64,000 nucleotides of DNA from NCBI RefSeq assembly GCF_035083965.1, contig NC_089729.1:18401964-18465963 (forward strand), given 5' to 3'. This document shows positions 2,985 through 44,552 of the stretch, in pieces; within the stretch, counting starts at the first letter, position 1, and every line of letters starts with the position of its first letter. Origin of the DNA: Branchiostoma lanceolatum (lineage: Eukaryota > Chordata > Leptocardii > Amphioxiformes > Branchiostomatidae). Position numbers and translations under genes: made by a program. The notes under the pieces were generated by a model. It did no database searches, was not told the origin of the DNA, and worked only from the letters and a program-made list of their open reading frames with translations.

Positions 2985-4414
2985 CTATGTGGCTAAATGA
3001 TCCATTTCATTTGAGACAGGCTGAGGGACATCCACATACTCAAAGCACCACTGCATATGCAGGTTAATGTCGGTAAATTGGGGTTGTGCAAGCACAATGT
3101 TCTGAAAAATTATGAAATGTATTACAATTAACACCATCACAACATTGTGGTAATATTTACTACTGTATAGTGCCCTTGGACCAAAATTATCTACATGTTC
3201 TAAATATTCCACTAAAGTAATAAAAGCCTTATTTGTGGCCAGCTCTTCGTCTAAAAGCCATCAGATACAAGTATTTCAAATACAGAGGTTGAAAATAGAA
3301 AGTAACATTATACTGTCTGAAGAACTCCCATGATGACACGCCACATTTTAAACGTTAGTAGCATATGCCGTGGAACTGCATGTGTATAATCGTCCTCTCC
3401 CCATTCTCTGACTACATCTGAGTTCACTTCTTCCATGCACTCTTGGTAAGGTGCAGGCAAGGCTGATTTCTTCTGTATCTGCATGTTGGACTCAGCTTGG
3501 AGTCCATCTTGTGATGAACCAGTTCCTATATGATAAAACCAAATGATGAATAGATATCAATTCACGTATTTAAGGAACATGTCACATGATTTTGACATGG
3601 GCTTCGTTTCATCACAGCAGCTACAAAAAACACGGAACAATGGATATCCATCATGCCTCTCTCAGCTAACATTGAAGTGTACCGATGATGGACTTACCAA
3701 AGGAGCCTGAGGTACTCAGCAGCTGAGCATCTGACAGTTGATTGCTTTGTTCCCAGCCAAGGTCCTCACAATATGTGCTGCATTTGTGAAGGAAGTATCT
3801 GCCGATGCTGTACTGGATATATATATATAAATGGAAACAATGACAAATATTAAACATATCACATACTCGCATGTGTAAAAAAAATGAATCTGGTCATCGT
3901 TGAATTGACTACGTAAAACTTACATCTATAACTTGAATATGATATTGATCAAACATGCACAGCTATAACTGAATGAAATAATCACTGAGGCACACTACTG
4001 CCTCCTTATAAGTTCTAGTTCACTATCCACAAACTGTGGGATCTTTGTGGGACAAATACTTATGACATTTTCTTCCCTTCCATATCTTTAATTATCTTTC
4101 CCTCCACTGCTTGCTATTTTGTATCTGAAACGTTAACCAGACACACATGTCTGCTGACCATTGGCAAGAATGAACAAATTGAAATTTTAAATTTCCTAGA
4201 TCCTAACGCCGTAAAAGGGCAGGTCGGCTGGAGAATTCTTATGGTCATGCGAATGCGATGATATTTCAAGCCACAATAGGAGGATAACTGACGTCAAAAC
4301 TAGTTAGAAACTGGAATTTTTCAATTTGTACTTACCAAAGGGCAGTCCCTCAAAATGATGAATCAACTCCCTACCAGCGTTTAAAAGGGGGGAGGGGGGC
4401 GACGAATATTGCAT
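2985..4414 (-). CDS. Unrecognised minus-strand gene, three coding exons
   Basis: I reconstruct three coding exons from splice signals and phase: 4414-4336 (starting MQYSSPPSPLLNAG, ending FEGLPF-G before GTAAGT), 3525-3314 (GSSQDGLQAESNMQ...MGVLQT, 212 nt) and 3101-2985 (NIVLAQPQFTDINLH...MDHLAT, stop TAG). Phases join without a break, giving about 135 residues. A TAA lies upstream in frame of the first ATG. I see no signal peptide, TM segment or known domain; the middle exon is acidic. The first exon lies head to head with a plus-strand first exon only 91 bp away, implying a shared promoter, and that exon pair is duplicated at 5608-5894. The 3' exons are also present as a decayed copy at 1411-1930. 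Product unknown. Confidence 0.5.
3698..3812 (-). other. Possible alternative or leftover exon
   Basis: On the minus strand an AG acceptor (after a TATATATATCCAG run) and a good donor (TTTG/GTAAGTCC) bound 115 nt. One frame is fully open (YSIGRYFLHKCSTYCEDLGW and on) and ends in phase 1, which joins onto the 3525-3314 exon. Its start phase does not fit the 4414-4336 exon, so it would need another upstream exon or is non-coding. It may belong to an alternative transcript. Confidence 0.35.
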
Positions 4415-4505
4415 GCACGAAGAAGACAACGTCGCAATTCCGTGCGTTTGAGTTTACACCGAATTCCCTTCGACTCTCAAGCCACTCAAAAATCACTGGT
4501 CGACC
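4415..4505. promoter_or_regulatory. Compact divergent promoter (second copy at 5687-5777)
   Basis: Two opposed start codons, minus-strand ATG at 4414-4412 and plus-strand ATG at 4506-4508, are separated by 91 bp that is rich in CpG (CGTCGC, CGTGCG, TCGAC). No TATA box is evident, and the CpG-rich head-to-head layout is typical of a bidirectional promoter. The same arrangement is repeated 1,272 bp downstream. The promoter role is inferred from layout only. Confidence 0.4.
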
Positions 4506-4622
4506 ATGGTAGACTCTGGCGATGCCATGTTAAGCACAGAAGGTGATGAAACGCCGTTCTTGTCTGTGCTGTTAACCGAAAGAAAACCGTTAACGTTTGT
4601 CGCGCCCAGAAGTGTCTTGTGG
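4506..4622 (+). CDS. First coding exon of an unrecognised plus-strand gene
   Basis: An ATG in good context (GACCATGG) opens 39 codons, MVDSGDAMLSTEGDETPF and on to PRSVLW, and ends at a donor GTAATT in phase 0. There is no known domain. It is divergent to the minus-strand gene. No downstream exon is certain; the open stretch at 7877-8121 starts after an AG in phase 0 and could be the next exon, but the link is speculative. An almost identical copy lies at 5778-5894. Confidence 0.4.
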
Positions 4623-4639
4623 GTAATTTGGATATCCGA

Positions 4640-6937
4640 CACGAATCCGTGTTCCGTACACGTCAGGATCCGAGACAGCTCATGACTTCTAACATATTGG
4701 CAAATCTGAACTTCTAACATATTGGCAAATACATAAAAAAAATGAAAGATCCGAGTAGATATCGTATCTGTACCCGAAACGTATCCAGACGTATACGGCA
4801 TCAGAATTGCTGGATCTGAGGTGTTCCTGGTATTTGTCCGAATTTGCTCGGAAACGTTCCGTATCTGTACCCGAAACATATGAAGGATCCAGACGAATAC
4901 GGCGCGGGAATTGTCGGATCTGAGGTGCATCGGATCCAATCGGAAACGTTCCGTATCTGCTATGATGCGCAATTCCGGATCTGTTGGATTCGTCAGGATC
5001 TGAGATCATGCCGCGTGCCGTGCAGTGTGTATTTGTTGGTCAGGATCCGAAGCAACTACCGACAAACAATCCGAACATCTCTGCCATATTGACGAATATC
5101 TAGAAACGAAGGATCCGCGCAAATATCCTTAGGTATCCGACGCGCATCACGGATCCAGACGTATACGGCGTCGGAATTGCCGGATCTGAGGTGTACCTGG
5201 TAATTGTCTGAATTTGCTCGGAAACGTTCCGTATCTGTACCCGAAACGTATGAAGGATCCAGACGTATACGGCGCCGGAATTGTCTGATCTGAGGTGCAT
5301 CGGATCCAATCGGAAACGTTCCGTATCTGCTATGATGCGCAATTCCGGATCTGCTGGATTCGTCAGGAAATGAGATCATGCCGTGCCGTGTGCCGTCTGA
5401 AACGTTAACCAGACACACATGTCTGCTGACCATTGGCAAGAATGAACAAATTGAAATTTTAAATTTCCTAGATCCTAACGCCGTAAAAGGGCAGGTCGGC
5501 TGGAGAATTCTTATGGTCATGCGAATGCGATGATATTTCAAGCCACAATAGGAGGATAACTGACGTCAAAACTAGTTAGAAACTGGAATTTTTCAATTTG
5601 TACTTACCAAAGGGCAGTCCCTCAAAATGATGAATCAACTCCCTACCAGCGTTTAAAAGGGGGGAGGGGGGCGACGAATATTGCATGCACGAAGAAGACA
5701 ACGTCGCAATTCCGTGCGTTTGAGTTTACACCGAATTCCCTTCGACTCTCAAGCCACTCAAAAATCACTGGTCGACCATGGTAGACTCTGGCGATGCCAT
5801 GTTAAGCACAGAAGGTGATGAAACGCCGTTCTTGTCTGTGCTGTTAACCGAAAGAAAACCGTTAACGTTTGTCGCGCCCAGAAGTGTCTTGTGGGTAATT
5901 TGGATATCCGACACGAATCCGTGTTCCGTACACGTCAGGATCCGAGACAGCTCATGACTTCTAACATATTGGCAAATCTGAACTTCTAACATATTGGCAA
6001 ATACATAAAAAAAATGAAAGATCCGAGTAGATATCGTATCTGTACCCGAAACGTATCCAGACGTATACGGCATCAGAATTGCTGGATCTGAGGTGTTCCT
6101 GGTATTTGTCCGAATTTGCTCGGAAACGTTCCGTATCTGTACCCGAAACATATGAAGGATCCAGACGAATACGGCGCGGGAATTGTCGGATCTGAGGTGC
6201 ATCGGATCCAATCGGAAACGTTCCGTATCTGCTATGATGCGCAATTCCGGATCTGTTGGATTCGTCAGGATCTGAGATCATGCCGCGTGCCGTGCAGTGT
6301 GTATTTGTTGGTCAGGATCCGAAGCAACTACCGACAAACAATCCGAACATCTCTGCCATATTGACAAATATCTAGAAACGAAGGATCCGCGCAAATATCC
6401 TTAGGTATCCGACGCGCATCACGGATCCAGACGTATACGGCGTCGGAATTGCCGGATCTGAGGTGTACCTGGTAATTGTCTGAATTTGCTCGGAAACGTT
6501 CCGTATCTGTACCCGAAACGTATGAAGGATCCAGACGTATACGGCGCCGGAATTGTCTGATCTGAGGTGCATCGGAATCAATCGGAAACGTTCCGTATCT
6601 GCTATGATGCGCAATTCCGGATCTGCTGGATTCGTCAGGAAATGAGATCATGCCGTGCCGTGTGTATTTATTCGTCAGGATCCGAAGCAACTACCGACAT
6701 ACAAACAATCCGAACATTCCAAATATCAAAAAAAGAGGGATCCGCGCAAATATCTTCAGGTATCCGAGGCGCATCACGAATCCAGAAGAATACGGCGTCG
6801 GAATTGGTCGGATCTGCGGGCACTTCAGTATCCGAGCAGTGAACTGGGATTTTTCCGGATTCGCTCGGAAACGCCATGAGGCCCGATTCCGGATACGTCG
6901 GATCCGTCAGGATACGTGGCCATTTCGTGCAGTGATT
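4640..6937. repeat. CGGATAC/GGATCC word arrays, copies 3 and 4
   Basis: About 4640-5395 and 5912-6937 carry degenerate tandem words such as GGAAACGTTCCGTATCTG, GGATCCAGACGTATACGG and GTCAGGATCCGA, the inverse orientation of the 2158-2835 element. The right end GGCCATTTCGTGCAGTG (6921-6937) is the inverse of the CACTGCACGAAATGGCC end at 2158. Apparent proteins rich in R-I-R-Q here are repeat translation. The unit containing 4640-5395 is part of the 1,272-bp duplication. Confidence 0.7.
5608..5894. other. Duplicate divergent first-exon pair
   Basis: Second copy of the exon pair: minus-strand exon 5686-5608 (MQYSSPPSPL...) with its GTAAGT donor and plus-strand exon 5778-5894 (MVDSGDAML...) with its GTAATT donor. 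Coding sequences, start contexts and donors match copy 1. The duplication gives each gene a potential second start site; for the minus-strand gene this one would be upstream of copy 1, and for the plus-strand gene downstream. Confidence 0.5.
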
Positions 6938-14568: not shown

Positions 14569-15960
14569 ATAGCGTGTGTGTTTGCGTGTATGTTTGCGTG
14601 TGTGTATGTTTGTGTCAACGATGCGTAAAGTCAGCATAACTGTAGAACGTATGGATGGATTGTAATGAGATTTGGTATGTGGGTAGGTGTCGGAAGGAGA
14701 AAGGTCAATGTCGATTTTGGGCCCCCTGGTATGTGTCACTGGAACTGCAATGGCGTATTTGTAAAAATCTTCTAAGGAGAATAACTGAAGAAAGGAACGA
14801 CAGATTTTTATGTTATTTGGTACGCAGGTAGGTTAGACAGAGATGTACACACTGAAGTTCAGATTATGCAAATTCAGTGTATTTGCGTGTGTATTTGCGT
14901 GTATGTTTGCGTGTGTGTATGTTTGTGTCAACGATGCGTAAAGTCAGCATAACTATAAAACGCGTAGATGGATTGTAATGATATTTGGTATGTGGGTAGG
15001 TGTCGGAAGGAGAAAGGTCAAGGTCGATTTTGGGCCCCCTGGTATGTGTAACTGGAACTGCAATGACGTATTTGTAAAAATCTTTCAAGGAGAATAACTG
15101 AAGAAAGGAGCGACAGGTTTTCATGTTATTTACTATGCAGGTAGCTTAGACAGACATCTATACAATAAACTGCAAATTATGCAAATTGAATTGCATAAGT
15201 TAATAACTTAATTTGCATAAGTAATGAGGAAAATCTATATTTTCAGTGTTGCCCATTGCATATTGTGGCACATCTGTTAGTAGCTATTCATAGCGAAAGT
15301 GGGTCACTTCTCCTAGGCCCGACAGGTGGGGGTCATACCATTGAGCGATATAGAATGAGGGGAACTGGTTTAGTAAAAAACGAAGTTTCATGGAGATTTT
15401 GGGTCCTAAGACTCTTGTTAGGACTAGGAGTTACTTATGAATAAAAAAAAACCTTCCGTGTTCAATTGTCACACAAGGCACAATCATTTAGTACAAAGAA
15501 TTTTTGCCATTGCCGACAAGGCTATATTTTCGGTTACGCCAGCTGTGGGCTGGTTCCGTATGTATGTCAAGAGCATTACTCAAGAAACCTTTAATGGATC
15601 TTCGTGATTTTTTGTAGATATGTAGAGGTTTTGAGAACGCAGGTTATATTTGAAAACGGTTGACCTGGCGTTTTCCTACAGTACTGCAGCGGAATTTGCA
15701 TGTTTGTGTGTTTGTACGTAGGCAAAAAAAAACTGACGGATCTTCATGATTTTTGGTAGGTGAGAGGCGATTGTGAGAACGGAAGTCAAGTTCGAAAGTG
15801 GTTCATCTGGCGCTTTCCTACCGTACTGCAGGAGGCTGTGTATGTATGCCTATGTGTATGTAGACAAGATAAATCGAGGAGCTGTGGATGGTTGTGCATA
15901 ATATTTACTCGGTGGGTAGTGGTCTTGAAGAGGGTGGTTAAGTTCTATGATGGAATCTAG
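14569..15960. repeat. Dispersed repeat family, with a 313-bp tandem pair
   Basis: Two tandem copies, offset 313 bp, carry GTGTCAACGATGCGTAAAG (14612 and 14925), GGTATGTGGGTAGGTGTCGG and TCGATTTTGGGCCCCCTGG. Further related pieces follow to about 15960 (CTTCATGATTTTTGGTAGG). The same family recurs at 32090-32345, 34440-35190, 39870-40320, 44690-45020 and 58440-60244. Class unknown; no coding capacity. Confidence 0.6.
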
Positions 15961-18224
15961 GTCAAAAGGTCAACAGCTGGCATTACTACTAGTAATTACA
16001 AACAGGACTCTGGTTTCAACTGTTTTTTTTGTTGTAAAAAGATAGCTAAATTTTAATAGTGAATCTGGTGAATGGTACAGGGAGATGCTTATTATGTCAA
16101 ACAGAAGCTAATTTACATAATTGATGACCTTTTTAAATACCGCTGCGTTCAATGAAAGCACTTTAGAAAATATGGCATCTATCACTGAGAAAGAGAGGAA
16201 TATCGATAAATATCATTGATTCAAATGATTTCATTTATATGATAGATTAAATCATACTATGATAATAATACTATACTGGTAAATGCCAGAATTTTTAAAA
16301 AGGTATGTCTGGTACCTTAAGTGAATCTGATGATTGACATAGTGGGATGCTAATCATGTAAAACAGGAACTAATATGTATTACTTAATATATAATAAAAT
16401 AATACAAATTTACTGCGTTTCCAAAATCTATCCAGTTACATGAGCAAACATTTCATTGCGTATCTTATTGGCTTGATGCCTAACCGTCATCGACATTTCA
16501 TGAGAGGACTTCCATACATGTGGCCGATGTCACTAGGAAAGAGGGGAATATCCATAAATAGCATTTTAGCAAAGGAAGACTCAATCTGAATGATTAAGGA
16601 GAAAATGCAATATAATACTTTATTGGTAAATAGCGGGACTTTGCTTTATTCGGTAAGTTTAAAATTATATGGTGAATGTATGAGGTCATGGAAATCTATT
16701 TCTACATTAATACGCCAAATAACAGTTACTCAAGCAACTGGATATGATTTTGGAATGACATTAATAACTATTTTTTCAGAGCAAGTATTGCTATATATAG
16801 CCTTTTATTGTAGCGTTGGTCTCGATTTGCGAATCAGTTAAATCTTTTAAAACTAGAAAATAGGTGGATACAAGAGTTTGGTATAATAATTGTGTGAAAA
16901 AATGTCTGTCTTCTTCTATACTATGATTTATCTCAATTGATAAGAGCACCAATTATTATATCAAAAGGTGATTATCGCTGCATTGTAGATATAGTACCGT
17001 ACATAAGAAAGTTAGACCTGTCCAAAGAACTTGGGTCAAATAGCTGATGAAGACCGAGTGATTTACTTGAAATGCCGATAATTTTTTTTTTTAGTTGAAC
17101 AACAGTTTATTTCTCCCTTAGAAAATTATATGTTAGATACTAAATGTTAGATATTAAATGTCAGATATTCCATAATCCGCGCGTTTTCAGAAAGGAGCTC
17201 AAAATAAAATCGTTTCAGTAGTTTCTTTCAAGATCCTTTGTTATTAAAGAGTCTTAGGTTAATCTGTCATGTTGGTGTTTCAGAGCACATGCAATGTACA
17301 TTGCATCTCATAAAGGTTTCTTGGTACGTGCAATGTGCACAGGGGATGCATTCCGCATTCTTTCATTCCTGCCCCCCTCCCCACCAACTTCATGAAATAG
17401 AAGCCACTTGTAAGCAAATATTATCCCTTGTCAAGCTGCTAGTGTTTCTGGTAAGTACATGCTCAATGTTCAGGGGGTGTCCAGATCCTTTTAAAATGAA
17501 AAGGGGGGATTCTAATTACTATCTTTATCTTCTTACTCCTATTTAGGGGGGTCTTTTCCATCAAATAACCATATAATGTTATACATCTAAAGAAAGCTGA
17601 GAGCCTCTACAGTTTCAAACTTTAGCCTTTTATTAGTAGTAATGAATTGTTAGGGCAATAATGCAACACAATGTTTTTCATACCCTTTTTGTATTATATT
17701 ATCTTAACCATATAATATAAAGAGTATGGGTATCAAACAAACAGAATTCCTGACAAAAGCAGGATTACATAAATATTTCATGAGAAGAAAAAAGTAAAAA
17801 AAGGTGTACCTGTCGGTGAGATGATGACTATATATTTACCTGGGTGATGAACTGACTATTATTCAGCTGAATAGGTGATTCTTCACAACATATTACACTA
17901 CACATTCTACCTAATATATAATAATATTAATATGGTGTTTAGTATACACTTGTTGTATATCAAGTGAAATTTAAGCTTAGAACCCATACTTTCTTCAAGA
18001 ATGTATAACACTTGACAATTTAATCTATAAAAGTAACAAACAGGTAAAAAAGTAATAAAAGATACATTTTTCCACATTGTTTTCATACCATCCACTCTAT
18101 TGTACCCATAGAACCACTTACAACTTGACCATACATTTCTTGAGATGTCCTTACATTACAACATGAGGATTACATATAACTTAACATAAGTAAAATAAAG
18201 GCACAATACAGGTATCATTATTGT
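15961..18224. other. No gene recognised
   Basis: AT-rich non-coding sequence with scattered short frames and a poly-T run near 17078. I see no splice-bounded coding stretch, RNA gene or transposon ends that I can support. Confidence 0.5.
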
Positions 18225-18450
18225 GTCCCTAGAGTCACATACTTTAGGAGCATCCTCACTAGGTAGCTTTAAACAACACTTTAATTTATATGTGGAAAGG
18301 CTAGGGGTGACAGATCATCCAGTGTAATACATGTATACTGTAACCAGTATTAACTGTTGCTGTGCAATGTGCCGACAAAGCTTGCTGTAAAGGGTGGTTG
18401 TACCGGCTACTAGTATATCTACAAATGTATACGGATACAGATTGATGCAG
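18225..18450. mobile_element. LINE 3'-UTR remnant
   Basis: CATCCTCACTAGGTAGCTTTAA, AGGGTGGTTGTACC and GGCTACTAGTATAT match in order the blocks after the LINE frame at 25780-25960 and again near 43980-44095. It is a 3' end without coding sequence, just downstream of the piggyBac gene stop. Confidence 0.5.
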
Positions 18451-18490
18451 ATACACTAGAGGTGAGTATACAACAAGATATTGAAAGAAA

Positions 18491-19541
18491 TCATTCATTT
18501 GGGTGCTGTAGCTTTATCCATGCCTGCTGATAGTCCTCCTCTGTATGATACAGCTCCATGCATGGTGTGATACACAAGGTCACCTGACACTGGTCACACT
18601 GGTAGGCAGACTCATGTCCAGATCTCTTCGCGACCAGAAATCCGTGTTCTCTGCGATACTTCCTCTCCGCAGGACAGCAGACCTTGCAGGTTCGAATTCT
18701 ATTCTTGCCTCCCTCCGTTTGACCAATCTTCTCTAGGAAATGTCGCCCGGTCAGGCGCAACAGGCTGCTGGCACTAGGACCGCTTCTTCCCTCCTGTCCG
18801 ACCCTCTCGTATCCCGAAGTGGAGATAAGCTCCTTGACTACTTCCTTCTGAAAATCCTTGTGTTCCAACAGAGCTTTCTTCCCGCGGGCGGACATGTACT
18901 CCTTTTGCAAGAGGTGGGCATTCACAATTGCAAGGCTTAACATGTGGAAAAGGGCCTTTTTCCACCACTTTAACCTGTACATGTTTGACCTGAAGCAAAG
19001 GTTGGAGTTGTCGAGAGCACACATGTACTGATTGTACTCTTGTTGACTCTCTGGCTTGGTGATTTCTTTCTCTGAGTGATGACGTTTGCCTGTAGAGGCA
19101 GACTTCTGAGTTCTAGACTTGCGGTTGCGCCGAGTTCCACGAGCCTTTGTCCCGGCATCACGGAGGTTGTGCCACAACTGTGGAGAAGTGTAGCAGTTGT
19201 TGTAGTGCAAAGTGTGGCCTTCCTGTAGGTACGGCTCCACGAGCTTTGACACTATGTCATGTCTCATACCTTTGGCTGAAAGTTCCTTTGTCTTCCCGCC
19301 ATACAACTTGAACTGGCAACAGTACCCGTTTGTCGCGTCGCAAAGTTGATACGCCTTGAGTCCATCACCGTACTTGTCAGGCTTGTCTTTACAAAAGTTG
19401 GGGTGGCCGCGGAAGGGAACCACGCCCTCATCTACGCCAATCTGCTGTCCCGGGTTCCACATAGTCTTGAATCTCTCCACTAGGGTCTCGTATATTGTTC
19501 CCAGCTTGTGCATGGGGTTGTACTGGGGATGGCCACGGGGA
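18491..19541 (-). CDS. piggyBac-type transposase, C-terminal block
   Basis: A 350-codon block on the minus strand with the DDE_Tnp_1_7-type catalytic region: a VDEGVVPFRGHPNFCKDKP motif carrying a catalytic Asp, then DKYGDGLKAYQLCDATNGYC, and HTLHYNNCYTSPQL, where families such as PGBD4 have a second Asp (VVMDNFYTS-type); here Asn stands in that position. The C-terminus has a Cys-rich zinc-binding tail (CKVCCPAERKYRRE, then CDQCQVTLCITPCMELYH). It continues the 25166-24800 exon of the same strand but is separated from it by the 5.26-kb insert. Removing the insert and one GA flank joins ...NYTYH to PRGHPQYNP in frame. Confidence 0.85.
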
Positions 19542-20084
19542 CTCAGGTCAATTACGGCATGTGACACCCTGTAATTACCGGTATTTTACATATATGGTTA
19601 TAATTATTGTTTGCATGGTCATAACGCCGAGATATTTGACACACTGTTAGCGCTTCTTGGTCTGAATAAAATGAATATACAAAAGTTTTCATGTGACGGA
19701 TTCTTGGGGTAAGAAATGGATATTTTGGTTAAAAAATGACATGCTCACTTTATGTGCCTGAGCCCAGGTGGGGAAAGCAGTTTGAGTCTTGGTATTTTAC
19801 AGGGTGTAAGGTGAAGCCTTACAGATTAAATTTGTCCGCGGCCTTTTCGACCCTTTTGAAGGTATCGCATGTATTTTGGGGCAAAAACGTAAAAAACTGG
19901 GATTTTTTTCGTATTTTCTGTGAACTATTGAATCTGTAAGCATTATCTTGATGATTACGAAAAAAAGCCTCGGATAGTTTGAAAGAGAAAGATGTGTCAA
20001 GTATTGATATAGTCCTTGTTTAAACAGTTTTGTTAATTTGAGCTGGGCTTGAGCCCGTAAAGTTGACTATGCGATTCGTCTAAA

Positions 20085-20176
20085 GCGCCGTGTCAAACAT
20101 GGCGCAATGGGGGTACGGCCCACTCAGCATTGACCAATCAGAGAACGTTACCATTGGTTACAAAATGGCGGACGCC
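20085..20176. promoter_or_regulatory. Promoter-like stretch with CCAAT boxes and a YY1-like site
   Basis: Inside the insert, CpG-containing sequence carries GACCAATCAG (CCAAT, near 20130), CCATTGGTTA (inverse CCAAT, near 20150) and CAAAATGGCGG (YY1-like, about 20160). These are typical of TATA-less promoters. It might drive the short open frames that follow. Confidence 0.35.
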
Positions 20177-20856
20177 GGCAGAAATTTTGTACATCGTCGT
20201 TTTTCATTTCTTTTAAAGCCTCTTCCTGTGTTCCTGCAGTCAGGAAATCAACAGAAACAACGTTTTCGGATAGCTTATGCTTGACACATATGTATTTCAC
20301 TTGATAGTCGTACAAAACTGTAAATACAGAGTTTAAGTAGACATTCAGCGTCTCGTTCAGAGCCTCTCGTGCCAAAGTTTCGGATGCTAACGCACATCGC
20401 AACTGAAGGAAACGAGAGCTGAAAAGCAAAGGGTGAAAAGGATGCTCTTAGCAAATGTGCATAAGGCACAGAGGCGCAATGGGCGAGAACAGACGTGGCA
20501 AACTTTTTGTCTACGGAAGGTTACAAGAAACGACAAGAGCGGCACATGGGCCAGTATTTCGAATCGCGTGAAAAGGCACAATGTCTTTTTTTCAGAGATG
20601 TAGTGCAAAAGAAGTGCAAGATAAAGTAGGGCTGAGGGAGCCTAAACAACATGCACCATACTGGATGCACCTTTTGTTTGATCGAGATGAATTGTTGGAC
20701 CATATGAAGTCATTGCCAAGTGGTAGTAAGGTAATTAGATACCGATCCCTGCAGTATCTGTTCCTACGAAAGGGTAGCTGCAGGTTGCAGTGGGATGATT
20801 CAGCAGTCACGTGTTACCTAGTTTTATACTGGTTACAATGCTCCTGTTTGCAGTGA
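20164..20856 (+). other. Short open frames after the promoter-like stretch, no assignment
   Basis: MADAGRNFVHRRFSFLLKPL opens at 20165 in good context and runs 39 codons. Further on, 20581-20856 is open (EVQDKVGLREPKQHAPYWMH, then LLFDRDELLDHMKSLPSGSK) with a possible donor GTAATT near 20731. Frames do not join convincingly. This could be a captured host gene fragment or chance. Confidence 0.2.
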
Positions 20857-22481
20857 TTTACACTATTGATGTTTGGTTACCACAATAAAAGTTCATTTTA
20901 CAAAGCAGTTATTCTGTATGTGCTCATTCACAATGTTGTGATTAAAAATGTAATATTGGATCATCAAGTGCAAAACAAACCTCCACAGTATCTAACAGAG
21001 GTGTATCATTATTCAACATGTCCCATGCATACAAAATACACCTCATGTATTCAACATGGTTGAATGAGTGAGTCCCTAATTGTTAGTGCAGACTGAATCA
21101 CTCCGCCCATCCACAATTCAAGGAACTAAAAACACATTAAACAGGCTAAGTATAGGTTGTTGCTATGCTATTTCACAGAGTAGAATATCATAAAACATGA
21201 TGGGAAGATCTAAGAATATCAAACTGTACACAAGTAAATTGACATGGATATATTAATTCTCTTCTTTATTTAAACACTGTAACATCATGTAAATAAAATC
21301 ACATAATCTTATCTGACTACATATAATGAATGTAATCTTTCAGGATAATGCTTTGAAATTCAGCTTTAAAGGTGAACTTTAAAATGGCAAAAATGTAAAA
21401 CAACATAACTTGTTAATATTTTGCTTTCCAACAAGCAATTTCAGCTCCATATATAGTATATACCATTTATTCTGACCTTAGCAAAATTAAGGCATAACTG
21501 AATAACATCAATGTATTTCATGTCATTGAATAAATGTTTGTGAATCAGAACATGTAAGGTCACATGGTATCAGAAATAACATGATTAAAGCTGTCCATCA
21601 AAGTATGCATGTATTTCCATTGGGAGTGGTGACATTCTGACTTATCACAGGTCCTTGGCTACAGCCTGAAGAGCTTTACTGTCCTTTCTGCAGAAGTACT
21701 TAGATAAGCAGAGTCCTCAGTGCTGTGTTGACATCCTTGAGCAAAGTCCTACATCAAAAGAAAATATTTTGAAAACCTGAGGTTATATGACAACTATCAA
21801 ATCATAGGATTCAATACTTGAGATTGCACAATAGCAATCACTGCATTAACAGGGTGGAAAGAAGATACTAGTAGATACACATTTATTGTTTAACCAAATA
21901 CATAAACCTGTATTGTACCACATAATATACACTGTAAAGTAATTGTCATTGTGAATTTGTAGAATAAATGAAGTGTCTTTAACATGTGCTTCTTTCATTT
22001 CCTCCAAGCATGCAGATACTCTGATTTAAGGATAGATTATGGTGACTGACAGAATTGTCAAATGTCACATAAATGTTCCCAGAATGAAGATTTGCTATTC
22101 AAGGAGTCATCCAGCTACAATGTATAAGATATACTTAAACTTGGTGGCACGGTGGACTTGTGTTTAGGGTTGTTGAAGCTAGAAGTGTTGTCTTGGAATC
22201 CCTGACAGAACCCCAGGATACACCATTGTTAAAGGCACTTTCACCTATTTCCTCACTGGACTCAGGTGAAAAATGGAAACCTAACTTTGGCTAGAGATGT
22301 TCTTTGGGTAGGCTGATAGAAGGAAGTCCCATGCATGTTTGAGGAGAGACAAACCTTGAACCCTTTATTGAGAAGAATGGGGGACCAACCCAGTGAGAGT
22401 GGAATAAATCAGTCCAGAAATGTAGCTTGTGCTGCAGTTTACCCACAGTATACAAACCTATCTCTAACCTTAATATGTAGT
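20857..22481. other. No gene recognised
   Basis: AT-rich interior of the 5.26-kb insert. Only short chance frames are seen. Confidence 0.5.
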
Positions 22482-22508
22482 ACACATACACACACACACA
22501 CACACACA

Positions 22509-22549
<41 letters not shown>

Positions 22550-22560
22550 ACACACACACA
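22482..22560. repeat. (CA)n microsatellite
   Basis: About 80 bp of CA dinucleotides interrupted by ATT, GA and similar single changes. Open frames reading T-H-T-H are repeat translation. Confidence 0.95.
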
Positions 22561-23593
22561 ACATTTTGTATATGCCATTGACTGAAATTGCAAGTGCTAC
22601 AATATAGTATTACATAACCTACAGTCCCCCTCTATGTAATGAACTCCTAAGACATAAGAAAATGGAGTGTGTCATCTTTATCTACTTCCTAAGCTAAGAT
22701 ATAGTTAGTCCCTATCTCATAGCTTGCACAGCTACTCCCTAACTGGCTTTCTGTTCAGACTGTCTACTATTTTTAAAACTATGAGGCCATAGCAAATCAT
22801 TACAAAATACCCCATCACAGCAGGTACTTCAATTCCTAATAGGAATTCACAATGAATACAACTTCATTCCTTAATGAATATAAAGCTAAACCCTCCATGA
22901 TAAATGACAGGAGGTAATGTATGGTATTATACATATGAGAAATAAACAAATATGCCAAATGTATACTGCATGCATGGTTGTAATATACAGTACATGCATG
23001 TAGTTTGCAACAGCAACAAGTTACAGAAATGTTCAAAACATTTGCTCAACATCCATCCCATTTCCTGTCAGCTAGCTTGTGATACTACTAATTTTATATG
23101 TGCAGTGAGAGCAAATAATAGTAATAACAACATGAACATTGACTTTGACAAGCAGGTGTTGTTCATAAAGTGGTTGCTGGTTGAGTTAGACTGTTGTTTA
23201 CCTGTGAAAAATGGATGTTTTGACTGCACACACATGTAACTTCATGTCATTTAAGTATGGGGCATGTTTTTGACTTATCTTATTTGTTCCAAGGGCATAC
23301 ATACTTAATTTAAGTTCTAGGCTATAGACTATATAGCCAGTCAGTCTATAAAAACTATAATAAGCATTCAAAAAGATGCATCCAATACATTCTTTTGGAG
23401 TTTGTCAAATCTGTCCAGCTAGGGAGAATTGCAAGTATACATTTCTTGTCAAAGACCATATATGCATGTAGTATCAATATCTAGGAACATGACTACTGTT
23501 CCACCTTAGGACAGTATGACTCCTTGCAAGGCATATGCCTTTTTGCTTTATCCATTCCCATTTCATAGATACAGACTTTGTCATTGATAAGGC

Positions 23594-23847
23594 ACATTGG
23601 CTGAGAGTTATGTGTACAGTACAGTTATGTGGACAGTTATGTGTAAAGTACTACAGTACAGAAATAGACGTCAAACAAGGACAACAACAACAACAGTGCT
23701 ACAGAGCTTGAGCCCCAGTCTCTACTGCTTTCTGTAGGCTCTGTAGCACTGTTGTTGTTCTCCTTATTTAACGTCTATTTCTGTACTGTAGTACACATAA
23801 CTGTCCACATAACTGTACTGTGTACTGTACACATAACTCCCAGCCAA
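23594..23847. mobile_element. Long fold-back (hairpin) element
   Basis: Arms of roughly 110 bp: the left starts ATTGGCTGAGAGTTATGTGT and the right ends ACACATAACTCCCAGCCAAT. They enclose a short loop near 23712-23740 and share the internal block AGAAATAGACGTCAAA. Sequence just beyond the right arm (GCCAATGTTTCAAACTAAAT) has a diverged relative near 53453. No TIR-type family is identified. Confidence 0.75.
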
Positions 23848-24799
23848 TGTTTCAAACTAAATTGCAAGCCAGAGTTGTTACATGCTGAACCGATAAATAA
23901 GCATTATAATTGCTACTCACCATTTCAAAGCCGCCCTATTGAGAGTGTTGGAAAACATTGTTTACACTGTCCTGGTGGTGGGTTCCTTGTCTGCATGCAT
24001 TCCGTCAAGATGCCGTTCAAGAATCACCCGGGCCCGTATCCGAGCCGTGTACGTGAATAAATATTTACCTTCAAGATTGCATTCAGCTCAATATTACCCA
24101 CATTACACTGCTCCCCTGGAGCCATATCCCACAGTTCACTTCTCCTATGTACTGCACTGATAATGATTACGTCTTTAGTGATGTCCCGAAATATAGTGCA
24201 ATAAATGTTAAAATGTCGATGGGAGAAAGTACTTGAGGAATCATGTGCACTTTCTATAACATATGTTGGGATATTCAAGTTGCAATTTGCATGTGTGAGT
24301 CGGCCGGGACCCAGACAAGCCCACACACAATTTATCAAATTAGACACTTATGAACAACTTCCTTCGGATAGAAAAGCCTGTCTCTTTGCGATCCGTAATC
24401 AGTGACTTGAAGATGTTAGATTCATTACAAATGTTTGACTTCATTGACCAAATAAAAATGATCGGCTCGATCCCCCGGCCACATGGCCGGAATAAAACAC
24501 AGTGGAAAGCCACCATGCTGCACGTACAGCTGTAACCTTTGCCCTCGCTGCGACTGAACCACGTTCGTGGTTATGACGTACCAGTTGGTATTAGTATTAC
24601 GCTTAGATGATAACAAAGCCAATAGAAGACGTATAAAAACGTATTAAATAGTTTTTCAAGTGCCAAAAATGACGTGAAGTTCTTTTATTACTGAAATACA
24701 TAATATTCGATGTACCCCTCCAAAACCGTTTCGTAATGGAACGGTCCGAACTGTGTTCCAGCGTTTCGTTCGAGTGTCACAAGCCGTAATTGACCTGAG

Positions 24800-25166
24800 G
24801 ATGGTAGGTGTAATTATCACTGAGATGGAAGAACTTCAAGATGAGGAGGAACCTGTCCCGTCTCATGATGGATGGGAAGAAGGGTGTCTCCATCACTTCA
24901 TCCCTGCTCCAGTAGTCCTGGATGTCCTCTTGATACACAAGTCCCATCTCTATATTCAGCGCCAGGAAAGTCCTCATCTCCGCCTCGGAGATACCTTCAT
25001 CAGGCCAACCGTGCACCCTGGAATAACCCTTATGGTCGGCTTTGGGGTTGGCCGCAAGGTAATCTCTGGCATACTTATTGGTTTGCTCTGTGCAGGTCTT
25101 GTAAACAGAGTCAGGCACCATGAGAGTCAGGAATTCCAGAGGTTTTGGGTCATCTGACAGTCTGAC
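24800..25166 (-). CDS. piggyBac-type transposase, N-terminal domain exon
   Basis: After an AG acceptor (TTTTGCCTTCATAG) the frame reads VRLSDDPKPLEFLTLMVPD, a TN-YA motif (EQTNKYARDYLAANP), the W..E...F.A..I.MGL block and DYWSRDEVMETPFFPSIM, then RRDRFLLILKFFHLSDN. This is the usual piggyBac N-terminal order. It begins in phase 0, fitting the 26405-26127 exon. It is cut at its 3' end by the 5.26-kb insert. Confidence 0.8.
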
Positions 25167-25403
25167 CTATGAAGGCAAAAGAAAAGAGAGCATGCAGTCA
25201 GTTTAGGATAAAAAGATATCAGAAACAACTATCTTATTCAAGAAACAAACCTTAACATCAGTTTTTCAAAAGGACAACATTGAACAGTATTGTCGATCAC
25301 AGTAAGAAATAGAAAGCAGATTGAAGTTTATGATATAGAAATATTATCTATTATTGTCGTCGTATTTGTAGCAATATAGCCTTACAACTCTGGAGATTTA
25401 ACC

Positions 25404-25530
25404 ATAACCCTAATCCAACCCTAACCCTAACATTAAGCCTCACTCTAAACATAACCTTATTAACTATATCCCTTGCCTCCTTGCATCCACACCCCACATC
25501 CTCTCAACACAACCCCCCCCCCCCCACCCC
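25404..25530. repeat. Telomere-like CCCTAA words and a poly-C run
   Basis: TAACCCTAATCCAACCCTAA plus neighbours (25404-25435) form a short degenerate (CCCTAA)n tract, followed by C-rich sequence with a run of about 14 C near 25509-25523. It is an interstitial low-complexity stretch inside the piggyBac intron. Confidence 0.6.
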
Positions 25531-25599
25531 ACACAACTTGGAACAATCAACAAACAAAAAACATCCCAGCAGCACTGCACTACTATAGCAGATTCATAC

Positions 25600-25990
25600 C
25601 CGAAGAAGAAGAAGACTATATACATGTATTATATAAGTATCTAATGCCAGCTCAGAAGAGGACTAAAAATAGTCATGCTTTCAAGTACCAGAGTTATCAG
25701 CCAAAGATTGATGTGTACAAAAATTTGTGTCTTTCGAGAACCATAGTAGAATTCAAATGGAACTCGTTGTCATCAAGTACTGTAGAAGCTTCCTCACTAA
25801 GTAGCTTTAAGAACGGTTCCAGTCAGATATGCAAAGACTATGTGTAGCAGGCCGTTCGGTGTAATATAGTAACCAGCTGCTGCCACGCCGCGTGCCTGCG
25901 AAGCTGGTGTGTTACGCCTAATGGTGGTTGTACCAGCTACTCAGTATATATATATATACAGATACAGAAGATTACACACAGTGGCCCTAG
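25600..25990 (+). mobile_element. LINE 3' fragment with UTR
   Basis: An open frame ends VEFKWNSLSSSTVEASSL, then SSFKNGSSQICKDYV and a stop at about 25847, the common tail of CR1-like reverse transcriptases (VWNSLP..VV.A.S...FK..LD). The UTR follows with GCTGCTGCCACGCCGCGTGC and GTGGTTGTACCAGCTACTC and ends in TATATA. It lies in the first intron of the piggyBac gene. Similar UTR pieces are at 18225-18450 and 43960-44107. Confidence 0.7.
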
Positions 25991-26126
25991 CTCATCTTGG
26001 CAACAATTTGGAAAGGCCCTTTTTTGGCACGACACTGGAAGCTGTCATAATCCCAATTGCAAGATGGCGGCGCCCATTTGATTCGGACGAATGTGAATTA
26101 TCGCGAAACTGTAAAAATGAAATCAC

Positions 26127-26405
26127 CTGGTCACTGAATCCACCGTGTTCACTGAAACCCTGCGGTACGCCGTCGCTATCTAGACTCGGCCAGTCTCCAC
26201 CCTCCAAGCGGGGCTCATTTGAAGCTGTTGGCGTGGCAGTAACTCGAGTTTCTCCCCGTCTGCGAATTCGATGACCATCGTCTTCCTCGCTGTCGCTCTC
26301 ACTCTCCGCACTTTCAGCTGAGTCCTCGCCCCAGTAAGGGAATTCGTTCCCGGAATCAATAGTAGCAATCCCCTCCAGCTCTTCTACGACTTCAGCTATC
26401 GACAT
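26127..26405 (-). CDS. piggyBac-type transposase, acidic N-terminal exon
   Basis: MSIAEVVEELEGIATIDSG opens 93 codons, with an acidic run (ESESDSEEDDG), followed by basic HRIRRRGETR and ending EHGGFSDQ before a CAG/GTGATT donor in phase 0. Acidic N-termini are usual in piggyBac/PGBD proteins, and joining to VRLSDDPKPLEF matches the family pattern. With the other two blocks the full protein would be about 564 aa. The intron-containing structure and CpG promoter hint at a resident gene, not a recent element. Confidence 0.6.
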
Positions 26406-26439
26406 TTCCGCATATATACTCCGAATTCACCACCGAAAA

Positions 26440-26520
26440 CCACAGGGTCTCAAATAAACTGGGAAGACACCAAAAGGCTGGCAAGGCCAAAGGTCACTGA
26501 ACTGAAGTTACGCATGCGCT
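26440..26520 (-). promoter_or_regulatory. Probable promoter of the piggyBac gene
   Basis: Just upstream of the acidic exon lies ACGCATGCGCTT (26510-26521), an NRF1-like palindrome, within moderately CpG-containing sequence. No TATA box. Confidence 0.35.
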
Positions 26521-26521
26521 T

Positions 26522-27735
26522 ATCTTCCACTATTTAAGACTTGAATAACGCCTTTTCTCGGAAAATATAGTGATAATCTTAGATTGATGAGAATTTTAGA
26601 TTTCAGACCTTCAGATTTGGTATAAAAACAAGATTTGGGACGATTTTTTAGTGACTTGGGGACCCCTAGTTTGAAATGGTCAGTTCCATAATCCTGACGT
26701 CACAGCTTCAAAACAAGAGTTCGTAGAGGCCGAACCTCCGAGAAATTAATAATGGAGTTTAAAAGATGAAATTCAATATACTGTATATAATTTCCATGGA
26801 ATTTGGTTCAATTTCAAGTTTGATCTCTAATGTTAATCTCCACCTTACCTGCAAATGTCTTGATAAACAAAACCCACCATCAAAGCAGAAGTCATGCAAA
26901 TGAGCCCTCATTTGCATAACTTATATCTATCGAAGAGGTTTCCACAACTACAGATGCAGAAAACAGTGGATTATGATGATTGATGTGCAATTTTACTTCT
27001 CATTAGATCATGGCAAAGGACATCGTGTACTCATTTCTTAACTCTAATGCATCCTGAATTAATTACGTAAACTTTTGTATAACAGCTTTATCTTGATCTG
27101 ACAATCCTAGAAATGACTACTTGAAAAAAGAATTCATTAACAACACATTCATTTTTTCTCAGGTACTATATATATTAACTTTTGTTTCTTTCATAACTTG
27201 TTTGATACTACATAATTAATACACTGTACACTACAAGGTGTACAATGCATATACAAGAATATCCAGAAAATAAAGTTTGCTAGTTTCTCGACGATGCATT
27301 CAAAGCAGTGCCCGGCGGGACGGGCGGGTTCTTTGAAGGGAAAGACACAGTGACTCTTCACTTGAAAGTTCATCTGTGTTGGTAGAACATAATGGACTTA
27401 CCCACATTTTTGAATGATCAGCTCCAGTCTTTGTCAAGGAATAAGCGATCCGCTGCTTCTATGACATTACGCTACTGGATGAAGCACAGTGATTGGCTAG
27501 TTATGGGAAACTATGCTATAGACTGTATAATGACACACGTGTACGCTTATATGCCTACGTAAGCATTATAGACTGGATTATGTGTGTACGGCATTTTCCT
27601 ATTATTGCCCACAATTTGTGAAAGTGTGCAGTAGGTGATCATGTGAGTTTCGAAAGCCGCAGTATCTTTTGCTAAAAGCCGTCATTTTAGCGTATTGTCC
27701 ATAAGAATGTACTTACTATACAGATGTCAAACTTT
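26522..27735. other. No gene recognised
   Basis: AT-rich sequence with short chance frames. A CpG-rich patch near 27305-27335 (CCCGGCGGGACGGGCGGG) is isolated. Confidence 0.5.
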
Positions 27736-28138
27736 TTCTTTTTTTTAACATGTCCCACGTACATTGAAGAAAGACAGACACGCATGAATGTTATCACGAG
27801 CAATGCAAACATAACCTTACCATCTAAGACAAGCCCAGAAACGTTTAATTTACTTATGTCATGTCCTGACACAATTTCCTTGTACATAGGCCAATACATA
27901 TCTACCTCTATTCTAAAAAGAAATCGATTAATCTCTGACGAAAACAATTGATGTTTCCTGTGTATCATGTCATATACTTCCATATATGTATTCTCTATCA
28001 TTCTTGTTGGATACCGTAGCGCTTAGATTTAAGTTTTGTAGAATCAATTAGTATTGTCTATACATTTTGTACTACTTACGAACTTGCCATACCCGTTACA
28101 TTTGTTGTGCAATAAACTTTGATTGATTGATTGATTGA
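27736..28138 (+). mobile_element. LINE 3' end with GATT tail
   Basis: A frame reading CPTYIEERQTRMNVI, FNLLMSCPDTISLYIGQYI and KRNRLISDEN looks like the C..Y...R tail of LINE proteins. It is followed by a UTR ending in AATAAACTTTGATTGATTGA repeats, a typical CR1/L2 tail. 5'-truncated. Confidence 0.7.
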
Positions 28139-28528
28139 AGTTTCTATATCTGCTTTGATCTTGTGAGTCATTGAAGAACAAATTTCACCTCAATCGTTTG
28201 AACACCTGCGATTAGCGTAGTTTATTTCACCACCGTTGCTGGGATACCGTGATTCTGACACCGCTCACACTGAACAGGTGCCATGGCTATGGAGAAGCGC
28301 CACCCCATACCTATCGACTTTGTGAGAAACTGCAGCAATTAATGTCGGTAAACCGGTCAGACGGCAAGGTATACGTATGAACCAGTGCGAGTTGACTCAG
28401 AACGATCCTTCGCGAGTTTTCCTGCAGCAAAACTCGGAAAATTTTGGGATTGAAGTTTGGAAGTCTAACTGTACAACGTCTAGGAGTCACTGTAAAACGC
28501 ACAGATTGTTTTTCTCGTTTTTTTTTAG

Positions 28529-30581
28529 GGGAAGACAATAAGAAGTTGTTGCTGAAAGTTTTGGCAGCGTTCGTTCTACTCGTGACGGCATATGCATACG
28601 CAAGTGAGTTGTGCGACCATTTGCTAGTCCTTGTGGACCCCCCCCCCCCCCCCTCAGGCTATGCTTTGTGAATCCTGTCTTGTCTTAAGAGAGACACTAA
28701 AAGAAAAAAAAAAATGTGATCCAAGATGCCAGAATATTTTCGTACCTCGCCTTCAATCTGTGCAGATGTGATTGTATTTGTACAAAGCGTGGTAATACAC
28801 GTAAAAAGGCGACGACCGTTAACGTATCAGTGGCATTTCTTTATCTCTGGTCCACACAGTGATGTGAAATTACTACAGCAGTAAAGCTAGTCCACTACAA
28901 AAACATTTTTCTGCGTATGCATTGACCAAGCCGCACAGAGATGTGGAAGTTAGCACTGTAATTTAATCTGTTAGGCCCCATTTCCACAAATGTATGCCAG
29001 AATGTTTCTATAGGACCTACAGTGGTCAGAATTTAATGTTTAACCTTCATGACCACGTAGATTTCATAATGAATTAAAGCACCTTTTTTTGCCAAATCTT
29101 TTTTATTCGCACGCTCGCATCAGTTTTTGGGTTCCGAGAGGATGTCATCCATACAATCAAATCAACATGGCTTAAGATGTCCACAGACATGTTGTCACAT
29201 GAAAAATTATCAAATCACACAAAAATCACAAGAAAACATTTTGGCAAAATGAGAAAAAGATTCTTCTACAAACTAAAATACTACTTCAAAATGACTAAAT
29301 GAATTGACTACTTCCAATTTTATACAGCAAAATTGTCAAATATTTGTCCGACATTTTGACTTGAATAAAGGTTGATTGATTTACTGATTCGAATGGGTTT
29401 TTCTTGTATGTAAGGGAGCATATAAAAACACAGACATCATCTCTCTCCCCATGTGAAAATAGCCTCTTCCAAATCAACCCTTTGCATGAATGGGCAATGG
29501 GCTATTCCTGAATCACCAAACATTTCGAAAGTTCCCCTTTGCCAAATTTCAGATCATTCAGCTGTCACTGAGCAATGGCACTGAGACCCTAAATATACAG
29601 GGGGAGAAACGCTGCGACATTCAATGAAACCGAATGTCCAGGCGACTCTAAGTGTATGTGTTTAGAAACTTCAGAAGAGGTTGTGCTCGGACGTTTGTGT
29701 TTCTAAGCACATACACTTAGAGTCGCCTGGACATTCGGTTTCATTGGACAAGGTTAAGATCCTGGACACAGAATCAGAATTTTTTGCAAGAGGGATTAAG
29801 GAGTCCATCTACATCCGTGCATTACAACCATCCCTCAACAGAGACGGAGGGCGCCATAGACTTTCTGCAACGTATGATCCACTGCTCTCCGAGTCACGTG
29901 TCTCATCTGCATAACGTGACGTCACAGAAGCAGTGGATTGCTCACTCCTTGAAAAAGACTGTAGCTGTTCAGTCGAAAATTTGGGTAAGTCCAATTTATT
30001 GTGTTGGCGTTTACAGTTTAAACTCCATTCAGAACTGAGTAAGTTTTGTAAATGGTCACATTTTAGATAGCATCCACTATCTTTGGTCAGTGACTAACTT
30101 TTTATACTAAAATACACAAAATATTCAGACATCCCCTACCATTATTCCCTGTCTGCCTCGAATCATGCAGATATCAAAACATTTTGAACTAGGGTGTAAG
30201 GTTAAGGGTGACGTGGAAAGACTGTCGCTAGCTCACGACGGACAGGTAACATTCTGCTACAACGGGACTCGTGTGGTGTACGTGGAAAAAACGGAGGAGG
30301 TTCGAATCCGAAAAAATATGGTCTTATCTGGACACAAGGTGAGCGTGGCAGTAGGGAAAGTGGGAGACCCCAGCAAGCCCGACATGTTCGATGCGAACAG
30401 AAATCCGGAATTACCGTCTGCCATTACAGCACCGGTGGAAGAAAACGGAGAAATCTCCAACGGATCTCACTTCGGAGATTCCGGAATCCAGACGCCAGAT
30501 TCCGGATTTCAAACTCCAGAGATGAGATCAGAGCAACATCTGCAGCTCCCAGTTACTTTGGAAGAGAACACTGCATTCTAA
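28529..30581 (+). CDS. Candidate unknown membrane protein, two exons seen
   Basis: Exon 28529-28603 follows a strong acceptor (poly-T then AG) and reads EDNKKLLLKVLAAFVLLVTA, a single hydrophobic membrane segment, before GTGAGT in phase 1. The last exon, either 30193-30581 after a weak AG in the matching phase or from 30174, reads CKVKGDVERLSLAHDGQVTF, RVVYVEKTEEVRIRKNMV and a Ser/Pro/Glu-rich tail (FGDSGIQTPDSGFQTPEM) ending LEENTAF. The start exon was not found; a MAMEKRHPIPIDF stretch at 28283 does not fit the phase. The intron holds a Penelope-like remnant. No family recognised. Confidence 0.4.
29623..29745. repeat. 47-bp inverted repeat at the edge of a Penelope-like remnant
   Basis: 29623-29669 (AATGAAACCGAATGTCCAGG...) and 29699-29745 are near-perfect inverse copies with a 29-bp spacer. 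The right arm reads straight into the Penelope-like frame. Confidence 0.85.
29670..30000 (+). mobile_element. Penelope-like element 3' remnant (GIY-YIG region)
   Basis: The frame includes FFARGIKESIYIRALQPSLN, RDGGRHRLSATYDPLL, which matches the C-terminal end of the GIY-YIG endonuclease region of Penelope-like retroelements (R-GVKEAIYIR...PSLN-DGG). It is followed by GACGTCACAGAAGCAG and GTCGAAAATTTGGGTAAG-type 3' sequence common to these elements. It is a broken, 5'-truncated copy. Confidence 0.7.
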
Positions 30582-44107: not shown

Positions 44108-44552
44108 CATCCTCGTCCACCAGGACCTTTCCGCTCTAGGTTACATCGCTCGCGGAAAAGGCCCTGGTAACACGGGGTGGCATCCATGGTTATTGCAGGT
44201 CGAGCCTCCAAAACAGCTTCAGCCAATCAGAGGGGTTAAAACCCATTTGCTTCCACTCATCGGAAGCAAACGCACAAAGAACGCTGGGAAGCTATCAACC
44301 AATCAGGTTACGTGTTACGGCTAGCTCATTAATTATTCATGAGCTACAACTGCCGTTTGTGCAAAATAAGGGCTAGCTCATTAACTATTCATGAGGTACA
44401 ACTGCCGTTTGTGCCAAATAAGGGTTAGCTCATTAATTATTCATGAGCAAGTCTCGTCGACCTGCAATAACCATGGATGCCACCCCGTGTTACCAGGGCC
44501 TTTTCCGCGAGCGATGTAACGTAGAGCGGAAAGGTCCTGGTGGACGAGGATG
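44108..44552. mobile_element. Inverted-repeat element with 8-bp target duplication
   Basis: CATCCTCGTCCACCAGGACC at the left and its inverse at the right, arms about 98 bp (left 44108-44205, right 44455-44552). Flanked by direct CATACAAT copies at 44100-44107 and 44553-44560. An 8-bp duplication suggests hAT- or P-like mobilisation. The centre carries a short tandem repeat. Confidence 0.85.
44321..44450. repeat. 52-bp tandem repeat, 2.5 copies
   Basis: Unit GCTAGCTCATTAATTATTCA then GAGCTACAACTGCCGTTTGTG repeated near 44321, 44371 and 44425; each unit contains a near-palindrome CTCATTAATTATTCATGAG. It lies in the centre of the 44108-44552 element. Confidence 0.85.

Follow-up and report, generated by a model that had tools for sequence, protein, structure and literature searches.

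A probable non-autonomous DNA transposon in the second exon of a piggyBac-derived gene of Branchiostoma lanceolatum

In a 64-kb stretch of Branchiostoma lanceolatum DNA (contig NC_089729.1, positions 18,401,964 to 18,465,963, hereafter "the window", numbered from its first letter), the coding frame of a piggyBac-derived gene is interrupted by 5,258 bp of DNA bounded by inverted repeats. Is this insert a transposon that has inactivated the gene, an intron, or DNA that is removed precisely? An initial annotation of the sequence had offered inactivating insertion or precise removal as the two explanations. The anatomy of the locus fits a transposon-like inactivating insertion, and precise DNA removal gains no support. 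We conclude that the insert is probably one copy of a non-autonomous cut-and-paste DNA transposon with terminal inverted repeats (TIRs), lying in exon 2 of the gene.

Ends of the insert

The insert and its boundaries are as follows (a slash marks a splice or target boundary throughout).

19542..24799, no strand: inserted element, 5,258 bp, putatively non-autonomous, with TIRs; delimited by ends, flanks and split frame
19542..19567, + strand: left TIR, 26 bp, complementary to the right arm at 25/26
24774..24799, - strand: right TIR, 26 bp, containing a CAG/GTCAAT donor with first intron base 24794 (- strand)
19540..19541, no strand: GA in the left flank, presumably one copy of a 2-bp target duplication
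24800..24801, no strand: GA in the right flank, presumably the other copy of that 2-bp duplication

The edges given in the initial annotation proved exact. The arms at 19542-19567 and 24774-24799 are complementary at 25 of 26 positions, whereas the best 26-bp inverted repeat among 40 dinucleotide-preserving shuffles of the region 17000-27000, with a 12-base exact seed required, reached 22/26. Inverted repeats of at least 23/26 in the real 10 kb are limited to the TIR pair (25) and a palindrome that lies within the insert and reaches up to 26. With up to three mismatches allowed, the first 17 bases of the repeat occur at two sites in the window, both of them the TIRs, against an expectation of 0.10. 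The GA reported on both sides is present. Exact matches to the 17-base end in two viral contigs were set aside as chance, as blastn showed at most 18 bases shared with the insert at both loci.

The interrupted gene

The gene lies on the - strand and is read from higher to lower coordinates.

26127..26405, - strand: predicted exon 1, 93 codons, with a CAG/GTGATT donor in phase 0 (open frame, splice scores)
25167..26126, - strand: predicted GT-AG intron (donor score 4.4, acceptor score 6.6)
24800..25166, - strand: exon 2, 5' part (PF13843 positions 2-95, E 1.7e-16; piggyBat 9c0f, E 3.9e-09)
18491..19541, - strand: exon 2, 3' part and stop (PF13843 positions 100-244, E 7.4e-29; alignments with 9c0f and 6x67)

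The two sides of the insert carry adjacent parts of a single Pfam profile, PF13843 (DDE_Tnp_1_7), positions 2-95 and then 100-244, and the proposal that a piggyBac frame had been split is thereby borne out. Joining the flanks with a single GA gives a continuous frame of 471 sense codons and a stop, with no lesion; the 472 codons counted earlier are continuous as claimed but include the stop. Predicted exon 1, which has no Pfam match, joins exon 2 in phase through a GT-AG intron whose sites score well, all splice-site scores here being based on general rather than fitted site frequencies. Read into the insert, the host frame reaches a stop after 7 codons, and the gene is therefore most likely broken in this allele.

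We take D268, D346, D447 and D450 of Trichoplusia ni piggyBac to be its conserved catalytic aspartates. In alignments with that protein (6x67) and with piggyBat (9c0f) the host keeps the first and third of the catalytic aspartates, has N at the second (NN where its relatives have DN, T. ni D346), and has S or N, according to which alignment is used, at the fourth conserved position (T. ni 450). The 3' part of exon 2, where the catalytic Asp is replaced, also encodes a Cys-rich C-terminal region. A search for terminal repeats flanked by TTAA, extending about 3 kb to either side of the gene, found none: among 26 x 21 TTAA sites paired between 15500-18490 and 26400-29500, the best pair agreed at 9/13 bases, and blastn between the two outer flanks returned just two inverted matches, one of 16 bases (E 0.25) and one of 12 (E 0.90). 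Given the replaced aspartates and the lack of such repeats in these flanks, the gene looks domesticated or dying rather than mobile. A search for relatives of its 3' part confirmed neither of two pattern-matching stretches in viral contigs and none of 25 in genome contigs.

Two short direct matches (38 nt at 84% and 22 nt at 91%) occur in the same order at 18235-18411 and 25773-25941, one set lying 3' of the gene and the other inside its predicted intron.

CpG composition of the insert

The insert is divided into three parts by its CpG content, as counted.

19542..20810, no strand: CpG-rich left end, 49 CpGs
20811..23668, no strand: CpG desert, 2 CpGs in 2,858 bp
23669..24799, no strand: CpG-rich right end, 42 CpGs

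The poorest of 1061 windows of 2,850 bp, taken every 50 bases and wholly outside the insert, holds 35 CpGs, against the 2 in the insert's middle; across the entire window, with the insert counted in, the median is 87. Over 20860-23750 the sum of TpG and CpA is 1.5 times its expectation, which fits the decay of methylated CpG. Each terminal repeat keeps a CpG, at 19555 and 24785. In invertebrates methylation is described as affecting mainly the bodies of transcribed genes, with transposons also affected in some species (PMC11292947, in excerpt). The middle is probably old methylated cargo within a young insertion, and the CpG-free middle between CpG-rich ends would make this a case of an animal DNA transposon with long-methylated cargo.

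Immediately downstream of the host gene lies a second CpG-poor stretch, at 17354-18373, with a single CpG at 17814.

Coding content of the insert

The initial annotation held that the insert has no transposase of its own, and a Pfam scan of its six frames agrees, finding neither a transposase nor any other family; the E cut-off was 1 in five frames and 0.1 in the remaining one. Myb/SANT and DDE domains were thus missing from the matches, though a transposase of an undescribed kind could have escaped the scan. In all, 42 proteins were scanned, some from outside the insert. Scans of smaller pieces of the insert yielded three weak matches, which were treated as chance: PF04275 (phosphomevalonate kinase, E 0.082) at 20351-20630 on the + strand, in a frame with stops, PF21709 (E 0.19) and PF00304 (gamma-thionin, E 0.046). 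When the phosphomevalonate-like stretch was searched against PDB, the four weak matches obtained up to E 10 did not include that enzyme. Two more weak matches, PF13392 (E 0.057) and PF05966 (E 0.018), lie outside the insert.

Some gene-like marks are present in the insert's ends, namely one splice donor on the + strand (20731), two on the - strand (24068 and 23920) and a - strand acceptor (21748). One gene-like stretch occupies 20350-20730 on the + strand; another is listed here with the palindrome.

23921..24160, - strand: gene-like stretch, with donors at 24068 (AAG/GTAAAT) and 23920 (ATG/GTGAGT); no Pfam match in the parts scanned
about 23594..23850 (up to 23591-23853), no strand: imperfect palindrome within the insert (inverted-repeat scan, blastn)

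The gene-like open reading frame (ORF) at 24027-24347 (-) gave a single match at E 1.5, the ORF at 20572-20853 (+) and one short predicted peptide gave none, and no credible homologue emerged for the insert stretches searched. The window as a whole contains no tRNA and no Rfam match at the gathering score. At the palindrome's right edge, 55 bp (23824-23878) resemble 53436-53490 at 80% identity; blastn of the insert against the rest of the window revealed no other resemblance.

Probable insertion of a non-autonomous transposon

The features of an insertion that are seen directly are the ends, the GA in each flank and a frame that is split cleanly. A transposase encoded elsewhere would have bound the 26-bp ends, mobilising the element in trans by cut and paste, and the element would then have been joined to exon 2 at a 2-bp staggered cut, GA (or TC as the coding strand reads). 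The cargo is probably older than the insertion, because the ends are 25/26 alike with their CpG kept and the host frame is free of lesions, whereas the middle has been stripped of almost all its CpG. When it landed, the element probably already carried this old methylated DNA, which may derive from a host gene. Under neutral decay, with one indel assumed per eight substitutions and a frame not under selection, an intact host frame has a probability of 0.60 if 0.2% of sites have changed and of 0.0065 if 2% have; provided that the frame is indeed not under selection, this favours a recent event.

Several observations weigh against this interpretation. The 2-bp GA duplication is weak evidence, since a match of that length arises by chance in 1/16 of cases, and no PHIS group in the excerpted text of PMC4482050 has such a duplication. 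No second full copy of the insert was found by blastn in the window. Part of the CpG loss could also have taken place where the insert now lies, if its ends stayed unmethylated as promoters; this is conceivable because the surroundings of the host gene are CpG-poor as well, with observed/expected ratios of 0.32 and 0.45 at 17-19 kb and 0.40 at 25-26 kb.

A text search of the literature for the repeat returned no known transposon family. Two PHIS groups were rejected on the descriptions excerpted from PMC4482050: ISL2EU, which duplicates AT inside A/AT/T where the flank here is GA, and NuwaI, whose TIRs usually start with GGG and whose duplication is CWG. The CACTA/CMC group was considered as well. 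If the insert is a plain transposon copy it matters little in itself, though it could help in naming a family whose members duplicate GA.

Could the insert be an intron?

Splicing might occur, though the in-frame sites for it are weak. The initial annotation stated that canonical splicing at the terminal sites would add 7 nt, which is correct, but it overlooked a GT-AG pair that starts from that donor and stays in frame. Fourteen donors and 18 acceptors near the insert edges were combined into 252 pairs, 38 of which keep the frame open. First among these ranks the donor CAG/GTCAAT of the terminal repeat with an exonic acceptor, CCCCAG/TAC, before 19522; its product is a net 4 residues shorter (HPQYN versus HPRGHPQYN). 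A transposon turned intron, nearly all of which the spliceosome takes out by means of this pair, would account for the intact host frame. It also agrees with the spacing between the aligned DN and the K that is aligned next, which we count as 12 positions in piggyBat, 12 in the spliced product and 16 in the joined frame, and the excerpted part of PMC9860276 describes introners that carry splice sites, some of which alter protein length. The pair's scores are nevertheless weak (donor 0.8, acceptor 1.0) beside 4.4 and 6.6 in the gene's own predicted intron, and the AG at the element's very end scores -7.5. As RNA, the two 26-nt ends would pair at -44.6 kcal/mol and bury the donor, and use of the pair loses PRGH residues. 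We regard this reading of the insert as unlikely. If RNA were to show splicing from the repeat to the exonic acceptor, an intron gain would have been caught with its donor, its acceptor and its 4-residue cost all readable.

A more elaborate version, in which the element belongs to an undescribed family of gene-carrying TIR transposons, brought in long-methylated DNA with CpG-rich, promoter-like ends of its own and is tolerated as a new intron in an exon of a domesticated piggyBac gene through the terminal-repeat donor and a ready-made exonic acceptor, seems to us very unlikely.

Other explanations of the ends and of the frame

The insert could instead be an element of the NuwaII type (PHIS), with true ends beginning GGTCAATTACGG, a CTNAG target, and the outer CTCAG and CTGAG belonging to the flanks. 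NuwaII targets C/TNA/G, most of its TIRs begin with GG, and an amphioxus is among its 12 listed species (PMC4482050, in excerpt). Judged by eye, the flanks here fit when read as CTCAG/GG...CC/CTGAG, and GGTCAATTACGG supplies the GG start once the outer CTCAG is counted as flank. The duplications would then be unequal, however (TCA and TGA), which needs a change exactly at the N position. The implied empty site, CATCCTNAGTCCCCGT, retains 7 extra bases that upset the frame, so that the gene would already have been frame-shifted, and it would be by accident that GA stands in both flanks and that the frame is restored. The lack of a Myb/SANT or DDE domain among the matches also speaks against NuwaII, though a non-autonomous member would lack both. 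The empty site implied by a GA duplication, CATCCCCGT on the coding strand, contains no CTNAG. We judge 26-bp ends with a GA duplication more likely, and NuwaII ends quite unlikely.

An assembly or haplotype-merging artefact is highly improbable. The idea gains some credit from a 1,269-bp tandem duplication, 99.8% identical, in another part of the window, but a mis-join is not expected to leave TIRs that match each other and a duplicated flank at either edge.

Programmed or self-excision by the piggyBac protein, for which the ciliate analogy and the precise restoration of the frame are the whole case, we discount almost entirely, because the second catalytic Asp (346) is replaced by N, the fourth conserved Asp (450) is lost and the junction is GA rather than TTAA, while TTAA-flanked repeats were not found around the gene and the removal of any TIR insertion with one duplication copy restores a frame.

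Other elements in the window

Two further elements with inverted arms occur in the window. The one at 44108-44552 is a 445-bp foldback element whose 96-bp arms are 99% alike, with an 8-bp duplication, CATACAAT, on both sides. The other, at 60245-61008, is 764 bp long with 273-bp arms 98.9% alike and a 9-bp duplication, GGTTCTGGT, on both sides; we take it to be Mutator-like. The 1,269-bp tandem duplication lies at 4124-6664 and is either very recent or an assembly effect, and a 179-bp tandem repeat in three copies with 97% matches occupies 2231-2764. P450 and C-type lectin are further domains recognised in the window; with the piggyBac domain and the predicted spliceosomal intron they indicate an animal source.

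Comparison with known systems

The host resembles PGBD5 and other domesticated piggyBac genes in containing an intron, in its non-conserved catalytic aspartates and in having no mobile ends that we could find; piggyBac has four conserved catalytic aspartates, a motif that is not conserved in PGBD5 (PMC3902484, in excerpt). It differs in having two predicted exons against the seven annotated in lancelet PGBD5 (PMC3902484). With the NuwaII group the insert shares a CTNAG beside GG at both ends (PMC4482050); it differs in its mismatched duplications, in the absence of a DDE or Myb/SANT domain from the matches and in a frame that would not be restored. Its TIRs, the donor-like site in its end and its location in an exon recall introners; published ones carry their own splice sites, and some of them add residues. 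Their family medians, however, are 30-654 nt (PMC9860276, in excerpt), against 5.26 kb for the single copy seen here, where splicing is a matter of predicted sites. The closest description is that of the non-autonomous TIR-bearing DNA transposons (class II, cut-and-paste), with which the insert shares TIRs, a presumed flanking duplication, no transposase domain among the matches and a clean split of the target frame. It stands apart from them in its large size (5.26 kb), its CpG-free middle and its presumed 2-bp GA duplication. As an interruption of a gene it is of an ordinary kind; the CpG-free cargo is what makes it unusual.

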